Assembly: GCA_030540085.1 (NCBI GenBank)
Contig: JAUNWY010000003.1
Span: 62,001 to 126,000 of the forward strand
Source of the DNA: Eggerthella sp.
Lineage (GTDB): Bacteria > Actinomycetota > Coriobacteriia > Coriobacteriales > Eggerthellaceae
Direction of reading: 5' to 3'
DNA length: 64,000 nt
The translations under genes and the position numbers were made by a program. The notes beneath the pieces are model-generated. The model made no database searches. It worked only from the letters and a program-made list of their open reading frames with translations, and had not been told where the DNA came from. Position 1 is the stretch's first letter. Each line of letters begins with the position of its first letter. This document shows positions 16,371 through 61,204 of this stretch, one piece after another.

Positions 16371-16799
16371 ATGTCGGTGATCAGGTGTGATGTCGTAGCA
16401 AAGAACAAGGTGCTCTTTTCAGGTGAGCTCTACAATGTCATGGTTCCCGGCACCGAAGGTGAACTGGGCATCATGGAAAACCATGAGCCATTTGTATCCG
16501 CCCTTAAGGACGGCGTCATCTGGGCCCGCACCCAGCAGGAGGGCGGCGAAGTTTTGAGCGCTGCTATCATGGGTGGTTATGTCCAGGTGTTGAAGGACCG
16601 CGTCATCGTTATTTGCGACAAGACGCGCCAGATCCAGCGCATCAACGTCGACAGGCTTAACAAGGATATTCCTGTGCTTGAAGAGAAGATCGCTAACCTC
16701 AGCGAGACGAGCATCGTTTCTCGCTCTCTTCTGACGCGTAAGCTGCGCTGGTGTAAGGTTCAGCTTGCTGCAAAGGAAAAGGAAGACCTGTACAAGTAA
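16371..16799 (+). CDS. atpC: ATP synthase F1 subunit epsilon
   Basis: Rotor-foot subunit that modulates ATPase activity. The 142 residues comprise the N-terminal beta sandwich with PGTEGELGIMENHEPFVSALKDG and a C-terminal helical hairpin (LNKDIPVLEEKIANL onward). It is the last gene of the operon, and a strong terminator lies 51 bases downstream. Confidence 0.94.
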   Translation: MSVIRCDVVAKNKVLFSGELYNVMVPGTEGELGIMENHEPFVSALKDGVIWARTQQEGGEVLSAAIMGGYVQVLKDRVIVICDKTRQIQRINVDRLNKDIPVLEEKIANLSETSIVSRSLLTRKLRWCKVQLAAKEKEDLYK

Positions 16800-16904: not shown

Positions 16905-17098
16905 TCGAAGCCGTCTGATCGGAGGGGGCGAGCGCTCCATCTGCATCTCGCGGCACTTCGCGTAGCATTCGAAGCCGTCCGATCGGGGGCAGACTGCCAT
17001 CCGAGGGGCTCCTGGTCGGCGGGGTAGACTGCCATCCGGGGGACTCCCAATCGGCGGGGCGGACGGTCATCCGGAGCCGCCCGATCGGCGGCCTCTCG
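16905..17098. repeat. Degenerate tandem array, period about 33-37 bp
   Basis: Four to five degenerate units share the pattern GATCGG-GGG...GACTGCCATCCG...; core units start near 16917, 16980, 17013 and 17048. Spacing between the better units is 33-35 bp. No gene is visible here. Confidence 0.6.
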
Positions 17099-17230
17099 GG
17101 ACTTGCCCGTATCGTAGACAATGCGCCGTATGCTCGCCACTGAAGTTCATCGGCGGCTCATCTCAGACCGTAATGGGTGTCAGGGGCGGGCGATCTGGTG
17201 TTGGCGATTTGCGCGGTTTGGTGAGACAGG

Positions 17231-17790
17231 TTGGCAAGATATGCGCGCTATGTATGATTTGGAGGCCTCGGACGGGATTAGGGGCCCTTCCTGGCAAGAT
17301 TTTCACGTAGTGTATTCCTAGCTAGCGGTTTGCGCGGCTTTTTGGATACACCGCGCGCGAATTTTGCCAAAACCAGCTCATTTTGGATGCATAGCGGTGA
17401 TATGTTGCCACGGAGGGGCGTTTTTTCTGTCCGAGGCTCCTTTGGGGATGCATCAAGTGAAAATCTTGCCACGTTCAGGCAGTTGGGAACGCATTTTGCG
17501 AACATCTTGCCTTTGTCGACCAGCGGAGAGCGAATCACGGAGGAATATTGCCAATGCCTGCCAGCGGAGAACGCATCGCGGGGAAAATCTTGCCATTGTC
17601 GATCGGTGGAGAATGCGTCACGAAGGAATTTTCCCATCGCTGAACACTTCGGGATGCGCCTTAGCGGAATACAGCGGCAGCCATCGCCGAACGCTCAGAG
17701 ATTTGCCTTAGCGAAATAACGCGGCAATCGTCGCCGAACACTTCGGGATGTGCGTTGGCAAAATGATGCTGCAGTCATCCCTCCCCAGAA
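17231..17790. repeat. Cluster of TGGCAAGAT...TGCATTCC repeats, locus A
   Basis: About nine recognisable and up to twelve total copies of a degenerate ~27-bp motif. Two run on the plus strand (17231 and 17291) and the rest are inverted (from 17343 on, for example 17384, 17446, 17486, 17525, 17566, 17608), the later ones spaced about 41-43 bp. The segment 17347-17445, read on the minus strand, is about 85% identical by eye to 60543-60640. Both strands have open stretches, but none has a ribosome site or non-repetitive protein. Confidence 0.75.
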
Positions 17791-17839: not shown

Positions 17840-17980
17840 CTCTCGGTGCGCGGGTGCGCCTTCGCGCGGGTGTGCACACTCTCGTGGGGCGCCTTCTCGT
17901 GCGGGTGCTCCTTTGCGTGCTTGTGCCCCCTCGTGCGGGTGCGCTTTCGCGTGCTTGTGCTCTCTCGCATTTCTGCCATT
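17840..17980. repeat. GTGC-rich minisatellite, period 34 bp
   Basis: Units starting CTCGTGCGGGTG at 17896 and 17930, with a partial next copy at 17964, repeat at 34 bp; degenerate units precede them. From here to the dnaE start at 18139 I see nothing else except AT-richer sequence likely to hold the dnaE promoter. Confidence 0.6.
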
Positions 17981-18138: not shown

Positions 18139-21100
18139 ATGGCATTTGCTCATTTACACTGCCACACTGAGTATTCTTTGCTAGACGGTGCTACCCACAT
18201 CTACGACATGGTTAAGCGCGCAGCCGATTTGGATATGCCAGCCGTGGCTATCACCGACCATGGCGTTATGTCTGGCGTTCCGGAGCTCGACGAAGCTTGC
18301 CGCAAGGTCAAAAAAGAAACCGGCAAGTGGGTTAAGCCTATTTTTGGCTGTGAGATCTACTTCACCACCGATAGCGAACTGAAGAAGCAAAAGCAAAAGC
18401 TTCATCATATGATTCTTCTGGCAAAGAACAATACGGGTTACCACAACCTGTTGAAGCTGGTCAGCGAATCGCACGTAGACAATTTCTATTATCGTCCGCG
18501 CACTACATTTGAAATGCTCCAGAAGTATTCTGAGGGCATTATCGCTACCAGTGCGTGCATCGCAGGTATTATTCCTCGCTGCATCGATGACGGGGCGTTT
18601 GCCGAGGCCAAGGAGTGGGCGCAGAAATTTGCTGCACTCTACGAGCCCGGCGATTTTTATATCGAGCTTCAGGATCAGGGCATTACCACCAATGCGGGCA
18701 TGTCCCAGTACGAAATGAACTGCAAGCTTACCCAGCTTGCTCGCGAGCTGGGTCTGCAAACTATTGCCACGAACGACTTCCATTACCTTACGCAGGAAGA
18801 CGCAATGGCGCAGGACGTTATGCTCTGCATCGGCACCAACGCCACGATCACTCAGGAAAAGCGCTTCAAGTTCCCGAATGACCAGTTCTACATGAAGACC
18901 GAAGAAGAGATGCGCCAAGCGCTGAAAGACTTCCCTGAGGCGTGCGACAACACGGTTCTGCTCGCCGAAAAGTGCAATGTTGAACTGGAGCGAGACGAAA
19001 TTCTCCCACGTTTTCCGTTGCCAGAAGGCTATACCGAAGAAATGCTCTTCCGCGAAGAGATCGAAAAGGGCCTCGAGCATCGCTATGGACCCGATTGGCG
19101 CAATGTCGTTATTGCCGACAACACCGGCAAGGAAAAGTCGGTTTTGGAACAGTACGAATACGAAGCCGACATCATCATTCAGCAGGGCTTCCCAGCTTAC
19201 TTCCTTATCGTTCAGGAGTATATCCGCTGGGCTCGCGAGAATGGTATCGGCGTAGGTCCCGGTCGTGGCTCTGCAGCAGGATCGCTCTGCACGTACGCCA
19301 TGGGCATCACCGACCTCGACCCTATCAAGAACGGCTTGATGTTCGAACGCTTCCTCAACCCCGAACGTGTTGAGATGCCCGATATCGACGTCGACTTCGA
19401 CGATCAGCATCGTCAGGATGTTATCGAGCATATTCGCGAATTCTACGGCGAAGATCATGTTGCGGGCGTTATCACGTTCGGCAAGTTGCAGGCGAAGAAC
19501 GCTGTGCGTGATGCTGCGCGTGTTCTGGACTACCCCTATGCTGTGGGTGACCGCATCTGCAAACTTATCGGCGGCGAGCTGGGCATCACCATCGATGGTG
19601 CGCTCGAGACAAACCCCGATTTGAAAAAAGCCTACGATACCGAAGAAGACGTTAAGCGCGTTATAGATGCCGCGAAGTCCATCGAGGGCCATGTGCGCGG
19701 TGAAGGCGTGCATGCGTGCGCAACCATCATCTGCCGCGACCCCATGAGCGATCATGTTCCCATGAAGCGCGATACCAAGGGCGGCGGCATCATCACCCAG
19801 TACGATGGCCACTATACGCCCGACCTGGGTCTGCTCAAGATGGACTTCCTTGGCCTGCGTACCTTGGGCGTGCTTTCGCGCGCCTGCAATAATATCGAGG
19901 CAACCACGGGTGAAAAACTTCTCCCGGAAGAAATTCCCATCGAAGACGATCGTGCGTTTGCGTTGATGCGTGGCGAGCTTCGAAAGAACGGGATGCCCCT
20001 CAACATGGATGGTTTGTTCCAGGTTGAAGGCGCGCTGTATGTGAGCCTGTTCGCTCAGATTCCGCCAGAGCGCTTCTCTGACGTTGTGGCTTCTATTGCT
20101 CTTAACCGCCCGGGCCCGCTCGAGTCTGGCATGGTCGAAGACTACGTAAAGGTTGTACAAGGCAAGAGCCCCGTTCACTATTACGACGATCGTCTGCGTC
20201 CTATCCTGGAAGAAACCTACGGCACGATGGTGTACCAGGAACAGATCATGCAGGTGTCCATGGTTATGAGTGGTTTTTCTGCTGGCAAGGCAGACAAGCT
20301 GCGTAAGGCAATGGGCAAGAAGAAGCTCGATGTTATGCGCGAGCTTCAAGAAGACTGGAACAACGGCGCAGTAGAAAACGGCTATTCGCTCGACATCGCC
20401 AAAGAGATTTGGGAAGACGCCGAGAAGTTCGCAAAGTACGCGTTCAATAAATCGCACTCTGCGGCATATGCGTTGCTCGTTATGCGTACGGCATATCTGA
20501 AGGCGCATTATCCAAATGAGTACATGGCTGCTGTGCTGTCCAGCTACATGGGCAACAACGACCGCCTGATCAAGTACATTGCGAGCTGCAACCGCAGCGG
20601 CATTCCCGTTTTGCCTCCTGACGTTAACTCGTCCAATCTGGAGTTCACCCCGCTTGAAGAGGGGATCCGTTTTGGCTTGGCGGGCGTTCGCGGCGTAGGC
20701 GAAAAGGTGGCTCAGTGCATCATCGATGAGCGAGAGAAGAACGGCGAGTTTACCTCGTTGCATGATTTCGTGAACCGCGTCGACTCTTCGGCATATAACC
20801 GCAAGACGCTCGAGGCATTGGTGAAATCGGGAGCGTTCGACTCTACGGGCTATACGCGCAAGCAGCTGATGTATTTTATTGACGAGACGCCTCTCCTTGA
20901 AAGCGCAGCGAAGCGTCAGAAGGACAAAGCGGCCGGTCAGCTTGATATGTTCAGCATGTTCTCGGATGTAGATGAAAGCTTCAAGGATGATATCCCCGAG
21001 CCCGATGGTGTGGAGTGGGACAAGAAGACCTTGCTCGCCTTCGAGAAGGACATCTTGAAGATGTACGTTTCCGACCATCCGTTGCGTCGCTACGAGAATT

Positions 21101-59115: not shown

Positions 59116-59280
59116 GTCCTATTGCCGAAAACGTCAAACTTCACCGGGTCGGCTTGGCCGCAAACGTCGAACTGCGCAGAATCGGTTTGGATACAAGCGT
59201 CAGGCCCCGTCGAATCGGTTTAGCTACAAACGTCATGCCGCACTGAATCGGTTTGGCTGCAAACGTCACGCCGCCCCGAA
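59116..59280. repeat. 33-bp tandem array, five units, upstream of bioY
   Basis: Units of exactly 33 bp at 59116, 59149, 59182, 59215 and 59248, each with a TCGGTTTGG..ACAAACGTC-type core. The frame starting at ATG 59084 is open through the whole array to a TGA at 59303-59305 and would encode an 11-residue repeat like NRFGYKRQAPS; there is no ribosome site before that ATG. Confidence 0.85.
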
Positions 59281-59343
59281 TCAGCTTGGTCTGGAAAACG
59301 CCTGATAATTTGCAAAAGGCAACATATCATATCAATTTGTGTA

Positions 59344-60100: not shown

Positions 60101-60346
60101 GTGCGTAGCTATCGAAGTTGTATTGCGGATATCGGATTGACTTTGACGAACCCGGATTTCGGATTGACTTCGATTAATCTGAGTATCAGACAGGTCCAGT
60201 TCAACCTTGGCATCGGACTGGCACTGTTCGATCTGGATATCGGACTGGTCCAGTTGGATCTAGACATCGGACTGGGCCAGTTTGACCTGGACTTAGGAAT
60301 GGGCCTGATCGACCTGGACATCGGACTGGCCCTGATTGACCGTTAG
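60101..60346 (+). CDS. Possible small repeat protein, 9-residue repeats
   Basis: An 81-residue frame (GTG 60101, no ribosome site). From 60131 to its stop the DNA is eight consecutive 27-bp units encoding IGLxxxDLD-like nonapeptides (for example IGLALFDLD, IGLVQLDLD, IGLGQFDLD). The DLD codons vary synonymously (GAT CTG GAT, GAT CTA GAC, GAC CTG GAC). A strong terminator begins 4 bases after the stop. It could be a translated repeat protein or a minisatellite that happens to stay open. Confidence 0.4.
   Translation: MRSYRSCIADIGLTLTNPDFGLTSINLSIRQVQFNLGIGLALFDLDIGLVQLDLDIGLGQFDLDLGMGLIDLDIGLALIDR
60131..60346. repeat. 27-bp tandem array, eight units
   Basis: Units at 60131, 60158, 60185, 60212, 60239, 60266, 60293 and 60320, all exactly 27 bp with no indels; units 4-6 are the most alike (ATCGGACTGG starts). 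Confidence 0.9.
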
Positions 60347-60420: not shown

Positions 60421-60760
60421 CCTGGCAAGAAGCCGTCGTTGTGTATTCGCGTGCTGTCAGAAGGCGCCTTCCTTGGCGAGATCTAGCTGCAGTGCATTCC
60501 TAAGCGGCAAGTCATGGCAATATTTCGTCGCTATTCATTTCCGAAGGGGCCCCGGACAGGAAAAACGCCCTTTCGTGGCAAGATATCGCCGCTATGCATC
60601 CAAAATCAGCTGATTTTGGCAAGATATGCTCTCCATGTATGCAAAATGCCCTGCAAAATGCCGTCGGGGAATGCATTTCGCGAGTATCTTGCCACGAAGA
60701 CCCTCTTTTTCCGTCCGCATCCCTCAAATCATGCACAGTGGGCAAATCTTGTCACTCTTT
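60421..60760. repeat. Cluster of TGGCAAGAT...TGCATTCC repeats, locus B
   Basis: Copies on the plus strand near 60423, 60473, 60515, 60577 and 60617, one inverted at 60667-60694. The span 60543-60640 matches 17347-17445 of locus A in inverted orientation. It includes a perfect 20-bp palindrome, CCAAAATCAGCTGATTTTGG, at 60600-60619. No supported gene. Confidence 0.75.
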
Positions 60761-60857: not shown

Positions 60858-61083
60858 CGTGTCCCCTACGTGAAGGTGCAAACGCTGTGGCTCGTCCTTT
60901 TGTGGGGGGGGGTGTGTGTTAGCGTCGTGGTTCATCCTCTACATGGAGACAAAAGCGCTGTGGTTCGCCCCCGTTGGGGCGTTAGCGCTGTGGTTCGCCC
61001 TCTACGTGGAGGCGCAAGCGTCGTGGCTCGCCCTCGACGTGGCGGCGCCAGCGCTGCGGTTCGTTCTTTGTGCGGGAATGCCA
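60858..61083. repeat. 33-bp tandem array with a G9 tract
   Basis: Units at 60922, 60955 (30 bp), 60985, 61018 and 61051, each starting GCGCTGTGG or GCGTCGTGG; degenerate units precede from 60858. A run of nine Gs lies at 60904-60912. One frame stays open and would give an 11-residue repeat such as SAVVRPLRGGA. No ribosome site or known domain. Confidence 0.8.
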
Positions 61084-61113: not shown

Positions 61114-61204
61114 AAGGCGCCTTCCTTGGCAAGACCTAGCCGTAGTGCATTCCTAAGCGGCAAGTCATGGCACTATTTCGTTGCGATGCATTTCCCGAAG
61201 GGGC
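61114..61204. repeat. Locus C: second copy of a ~90-bp segment of locus B
   Basis: About 90% identical by eye to 60461-60550 (for example CATTCCTAAGCGGCAAGTCA is shared exactly), in the same orientation. It contains two more TGGCAAGAT-type motifs. It brackets the 33-bp array between the two copies. Confidence 0.8.

Follow-up and report, generated by a model that had tools for sequence, protein, structure and literature searches.

The intergenic region between atpC and dnaE of this Eggerthella sp. contains one copy of a dispersed element with a core of about 241 bp, in which five copies of a bipartite box recur in the same order, orientation, and spacing from copy to copy in the host genome. 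With a probability of about one half, this element represents a non-autonomous, MITE-like intergenic unit that consists of gene-less transposon ends of the Mu/IS21/Tn7 type, placed back to back. The chief rival of this reading is the use of the copies in place by a host DNA-binding protein. As far as the searches reached, the repeat family is without earlier description, and no literature was found on dispersed palindromic repeats in Coriobacteria or on MITEs in Eggerthella. Should the element be mobile, it would exemplify a MITE that has several sites at each end, in place of simple terminal repeats, and whose terminal sites gave rise to minisatellites by multiplication; should its copies be kept where they are, they would constitute a novel type of chromosomal nucleoprotein site, specific to one lineage.

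Within the window, i.e. the whole stretch of 64,000 nucleotides that was analyzed, the element was encountered as a 560-bp block (17231-17790) in the 1.34-kb gap between atpC (ending at 16799) and dnaE (starting at 18139), both gene names being derived from the translated sequence and from the match in relatives. The sequence-only reading of this block had counted nine to twelve repeat copies, the first two on the plus strand and the rest inverted. Nine clear boxes and up to two vestiges, or up to 11 in all, were retrieved, the clear ones comprising two on the plus strand followed by seven on the minus strand. The weakest two, near 17651 and 17688, were barely recognizable (11/18 and 10/18 scored positions). 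As a box score of 13/17 corresponded to background under a Markov null, a match had to reach at least 14, or be in register with a copy, in order to be counted. The distance between the later copies had been given as 41-43 bp; the measured spacing of the minus-strand boxes was 41, 61, 41, 41, 42, and 41 bp. The core was aligned with 11 and with 15 other genomic copies, in two alignments, and the features of this first copy, element A, are as follows:

17232..17471, plus strand: core ("head") of element A, with the five boxes A (+0), B (+60), C' (-), D' (-), and E' (-) in an imperfect inverted-repeat layout (alignment and box map)
17232..17258, plus strand: box A, left terminal, with a sharp left boundary at TGG (alignment and box map)
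17292..17318, plus strand: box B, left subterminal (box map)
17343..17369, minus strand: box C', third from the right end (box map)
17384..17410, minus strand: box D', right subterminal (box map)
17445..17471, minus strand: box E', right terminal of the core (box map)
17486..17636, minus strand: tail of element A, four degenerate boxes (17486-17512, 17527-17553, ~17569-17595, and 17610-17636) at 41-42-bp steps (box map)
17637..17779, no strand: three degenerate repeats of ~47 bp after the tail, with box traces only

A second copy, element B, occurs in the same window. A resemblance between 17347-17445 and 60543-60640 had already been noticed and is real, although its identity, given as 85%, was measured at 82% (80/97). 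The features of element B are:

60514..60754, minus strand: core of element B (alignment and box map)
60728-60754, minus strand: box A
60668-60694, minus strand: box B
60617-60643, plus strand: box C'
60576-60602, plus strand: box D'
60515-60541, plus strand: box E'
60423..60500, plus strand: two tail boxes (60474-60500 and 60423-60449) (box map)
61127..61194, plus strand: partial copy of element B (E' and the first tail box), 653 bp off (box map)

The last feature duplicates the fragment 60474-60541, with a 33-bp minisatellite in between.

When the block was used to search the host assembly (16 contigs, 1.56 Mb in total, 80% complete), a dozen strong matches were returned, each about 220-305 bp long, and a consensus query together with a 125-column sequence model raised the total to about 17 loci. 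Sixteen copies were aligned over the core of ~241 bp, 12 of them easily and four being diverged. In the host genome, the pattern TGGCAANATNNNNNCNNNNTGYAT gave 45 exact matches and 83 when one mismatch was allowed, whereas its reversed control gave none, and nearly all box matches in the assembly were located within element clusters. Numerous intergenic copies that share one core, as the sequence-only reading had proposed to look for by a genome scan, are thus present within this genome. All copies were located on contigs C3, C9, and C14 (567 of 1560 kb) and none on the other 13 contigs; in a comparison of the base composition of all contigs, these three were not set apart from the rest. The copies occupy unrelated intergenic sites beside diverse genes, such as those between atpC and dnaE, at the citrate synthase and shikimate dehydrogenase genes, at the gene for an AMP-binding enzyme, and upstream of dnaK- and dinB-like genes. 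No common function was found among the flanking genes, and both the orientation of the copies and their neighboring genes were mixed.

Among the 138 family genomes searched, the element was present in that of the host only. A blastn search of 39 related genomes gave nothing similar, the sequence model reached an unconvincing best E value of 0.003 in 98 other family members, and the exact pattern gave at most one lone match in each of 137 other family members. The element was absent from the three congeners searched, and the atpC-dnaE gap of one of these (G003) contains a small gene and no element; a remnant of that gene was sought at the locus of element A and was not found. A scan of 84,980 GTDB species and IMG/VR with the exact pattern gave lone matches, one per stretch. 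These GTDB and viral matches were dismissed as chance matches, clusters having been checked in 13 stretches, and a phage or plasmid origin was rejected, as phage and plasmid records gave no match.

With the first position of the element set to 0, box starts fall at 0 (+), 61 (+), 130 (-), 171 (-), and 232 (-), and those of the tail at 273, 314, 355, and so on, the positions given for minus-strand boxes being those of ATCTTGCCA. When distances are taken from the ends, the left side has boxes at 0 and 61 bp and the right side at 0, 61, and 102 bp, with order and distance fixed. The TGG edge points outward in every copy, the left boxes facing one way and the right boxes the opposite way. The arms A/E' and B/D' form terminal inverted repeats, with one box at each extremity and another 61 bp inward of it, and, since the linkers of the two arms are homologous too, the core is an imperfect palindrome of 241 bp. 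The element is not AT-rich. Twelve copies diverge by up to about a third, and their core alignment contains one internal 1-bp indel column. Homology among the copies mostly starts at the TGG of box A. Subfamily 2 (C9:115120, 117206, and 165212) has other linkers, lacks a tail, and is sharp at both ends, homology stopping at the CCA of E'; its boxes are identical in set and placement to those of subfamily 1. Most left ends of subfamily 1 are sharply bounded by TGG, with ~30 bp of degenerate sequence shared farther leftward by four copies, and the right side continues with 0-7 degenerate minus-strand boxes at 41-bp steps, which make the right terminus of this subfamily ambiguous. Two subfamily-2 copies flank an ORF of 317 amino acids (C9:115581-116534, minus strand), the product of which gave no Pfam, NCBIfam, or PADLOC match and has no second copy in the genome stretches examined.

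The box itself, of ~26 bp, has the bipartite form TGGCAAgAT-N5-C-N4-RTGYAT. The five boxes share one conservation profile, in which GGCA, TG, and the final T of RTGYAT are almost invariant, changes at positions 19 and 22 are mainly transitions (R, Y), and the gaps on either side of the conserved C are free to vary. Parsimony on a tree of 16 copies gave, per column, 0.77 changes on terminal and 0.13 on internal branches for the box cores versus 1.52 and 0.92 for the linkers, so that the cores change roughly half as fast as the linkers on terminal branches and about 7-fold more rarely on internal ones. With a core definition that came solely from subfamily 2, the copies of subfamily 1 showed private changes in 10 of 60 columns of the core and in 38 of 105 of the linkers (one-sided p=0.016), and the seven closest copies in 6/60 and 23/106, respectively (p=0.058). 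The difference between internal-branch rates and terminal-branch or private rates suggests that the boxes were strongly constrained during propagation and moderately spared afterwards. The internal geometry is so unusually well preserved that the predicted protein-binding motif can be read from the sequence alone.

The presence of several outward bipartite sites per end, in unequal number and with TG...CA edges, led to the interpretation of the element as a gene-less pair of transposon ends. Each copy would consist of a left end and a right end, back to back and without genes in between. Each end would expose an outward box at its terminus and a second one 61 bp inward, and the right end would add one more at 102 bp. 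Through its two DNA-binding domains, a transposase would recognize the TGGCAA half and the TGYAT half of each box, bring the two ends together, and cleave at the outer TG/CA. The right side of subfamily 1 would have been lengthened by tandem 41-bp units with one box each, probably through duplication of end sites. The rarity of core changes on internal branches fits the expectation if propagating lineages must keep their boxes, whereas the sparing of the core from private mutations is not predicted for a dead copy and argues against this reading. Further points in its favor are the dispersal of the copies over unrelated sites, their sharp ends, the homology of the two arms, and the scarcity of boxes outside the element clusters; further points against it are the ~30 bp shared to the left of box A by four copies, the ambiguous right terminus of subfamily 1, and the lack of AT-richness. 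Like MITEs, the element is short, non-coding, and multi-copy (16 copies of ~241 bp) and has terminal inverted repeats. No target-site duplication was found in the flanks of the 16 copies, which are old and often blurred at their right ends, and no parent transposon with matching ends was retrieved from the 80%-complete assembly. Because these two defining features were looked for and not found, membership of the MITEs is not established; the element is filed among composite dispersed intergenic repeats, as one that would work like a MITE with multi-site ends. The 241 bp contain no gene for a cognate DDE transposase or its AAA+ partner, and a search of the assembly for rve domains gave one match, a decayed fragment (C14:77749-77946), and no intact rve transposase. 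No box lies beside this decayed transposase fragment, the sole candidate partner that the rve search of the 80%-complete assembly yielded; it is about 2.9 kb from an element copy.

Tn7-like ends contain arrays of ~20-bp inverted transposase-binding sites, with three on the left and four on the right in Tn7 (PMC8649781), and IS21 involves repeated L1/L2 and R1/R2 elements, two HTH domains, and a terminal CA (PMC11208146). Similarly, the present element has several ~20-bp sites, opposed between left and right and unequal in number (2 + 3), with TG...CA edges, and, judged by its layout, outward arrays of such sites would occur at both ends. Unlike Tn7-like elements and IS21, it has no genes between its ends, no TnsB or IstA and no target duplication were found, and the linkers of its two ends are homologous. 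Short MITEs with tandem repeats are known, and minisatellites are carried by Porphyromonas MITEs (PMC4596501). BrickBuilt and MITE464/PgRS of Porphyromonas gingivalis resemble the present element in having ~10-20 degenerate intergenic copies in one species, inverted repeats, tandem units (41 nt in 464/PgRS), and strong predicted hairpins (PMC4596501), a likeness by description for which no sequence kinship is claimed. In contrast to these, neither an IS with matching ends nor a target duplication was found here, and repeat unit and ends are one motif, the box, in fixed opposed order. The BOX element of Streptococcus pneumoniae, thought to be parasitic, is also modular, dispersed, and intergenic, with variable tandem modules (PMC3049150). 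However, BOX is organized as A-B(n)-C with a central array (PMC3049150), whereas here the variable array occupies one flank only and has the same box in each module; identity with BOX was rejected on this ground.

Alternatively, the copies may be host-maintained DNA sites, selected in place, at which a nucleoid organizer, a partition-type protein, or a multi-gene regulator acts on five phased boxes, which is rather unlikely. That they are, instead of dead mobile elements, the in-use assembly sites of a chromosomal DNA-binding protein that reads the two-part 26-bp box in its five-box order, on some contigs of one lineage, is a shade more doubtful still. The halved rate of change of the box cores on terminal branches, the sparing of an independently defined core from private mutations, and the single 1-bp indel column among 12 copies of such divergence are consistent with selection in place, as are the same-orientation spacings of 41 and 60/61 bp, close to whole helical turns, and the confinement to C3, C9, and C14. 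Yet, absence from three congeners and the other family genomes searched would be unusual for a core chromosome function, the mixed orientation and neighboring genes argue against it, and proximity to the origin is not supported by synteny with relatives such as G003. Indeed, when a concatenated housekeeping query was used to place the genes of the host contigs on G003, those of the element-free contigs C7 and C16 were found 81 and 202 kb from dnaA and that of the element-bearing C9 329 kb away, so that an origin-proximal domain was rejected. Neutral minisatellite decay, whereby slippage in intergenic DNA prone to repeats would have lengthened a chance inverted repeat that no factor recognizes, agrees with the location of the elements in islands of unrelated degenerate minisatellites. 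It is very unlikely, however, given the dispersal to distant sites with a fixed five-box order and the box-specific conservation profile in all five boxes.

A structured RNA, i.e. a transcribed element of which the long hairpin would be a processing site, terminator, or regulator, is highly improbable as well. The predicted folds are very stable, with z between about -3 and -16; in all copies of subfamily 1, the plus strand is the better-folding one, with 121 G-U versus 48 A-C mismatches, and the covariation score was reached in 6 of 500 shuffles, which ignore relatedness. However, stable hairpins follow from the homology of the arms including their linkers, and both strands have extreme folding energies, which is expected of a long inverted repeat. 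Moreover, the strand preference of subfamily 1 is reversed in two of the three subfamily-2 copies, so that strand asymmetry was rejected as evidence for RNA. Arm identity is 63% within a copy versus 61% between copies, the excess being clearest in C9_115120 and C3_5319, change on both sides affects just 7 of 66 consensus pairs, no curated covariance model of Rfam was matched, and the tail units repeat the box, yet its plus-strand partners number two. The reversed strand preference, the near-equal arm identities, the few pairs changed on both sides, and the weak covariation agree better with recognition of the boxes at the DNA level than with a selected fold. Of the options left by the sequence-only reading, namely a protein- or RNA-recognized element or a decaying mobile unit, a protein-recognized MITE-like unit is thus favored by the box profile and the near-indel-free spacing; its copies may have moved, and recognition as RNA is doubtful. 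A deviant copy on C3 (L079:5075-5319) has z values of -16 and -10.5 on its two strands, as if its arms were mutually corrected.

A decayed gene was rejected, as no frame is open in all 12 copies and variable columns are distributed evenly among the codon positions (50/47/45), with no codon periodicity. CRISPR arrays resemble the block in their 27-bp repeat and regular intervals. Unlike these, it has linkers of 14 bp and strongly degenerate repeats in both orientations, and its linkers recur among genomic copies; CRISPR was rejected on this geometry and degeneracy, in line with the earlier judgment that the copies are too variable for it.

The unrelated degenerate minisatellites that cluster round the elements have periods of ~16-54 bp and were located as follows:

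In the window: 16986-17091, 17848-17962, 59179-59289, 60177-60341, and 60990-61053
Elsewhere: C3:7735, C3:8100, C9:117000, 141732, 150733, 161518, 165481, 175481, 297411, and 298520, and C14:83088

Eleven comparison stretches of 20 kb, located away from elements, contained one comparable array (C12:107583); this comparison is biased, as the other stretches had been chosen around elements. In addition, a second small repeat was found at ~17123-17177, which is 85% identical over 55 bp to C9:129255-129309; it is located to the left of element A and to the right of the copy at C9:129008.
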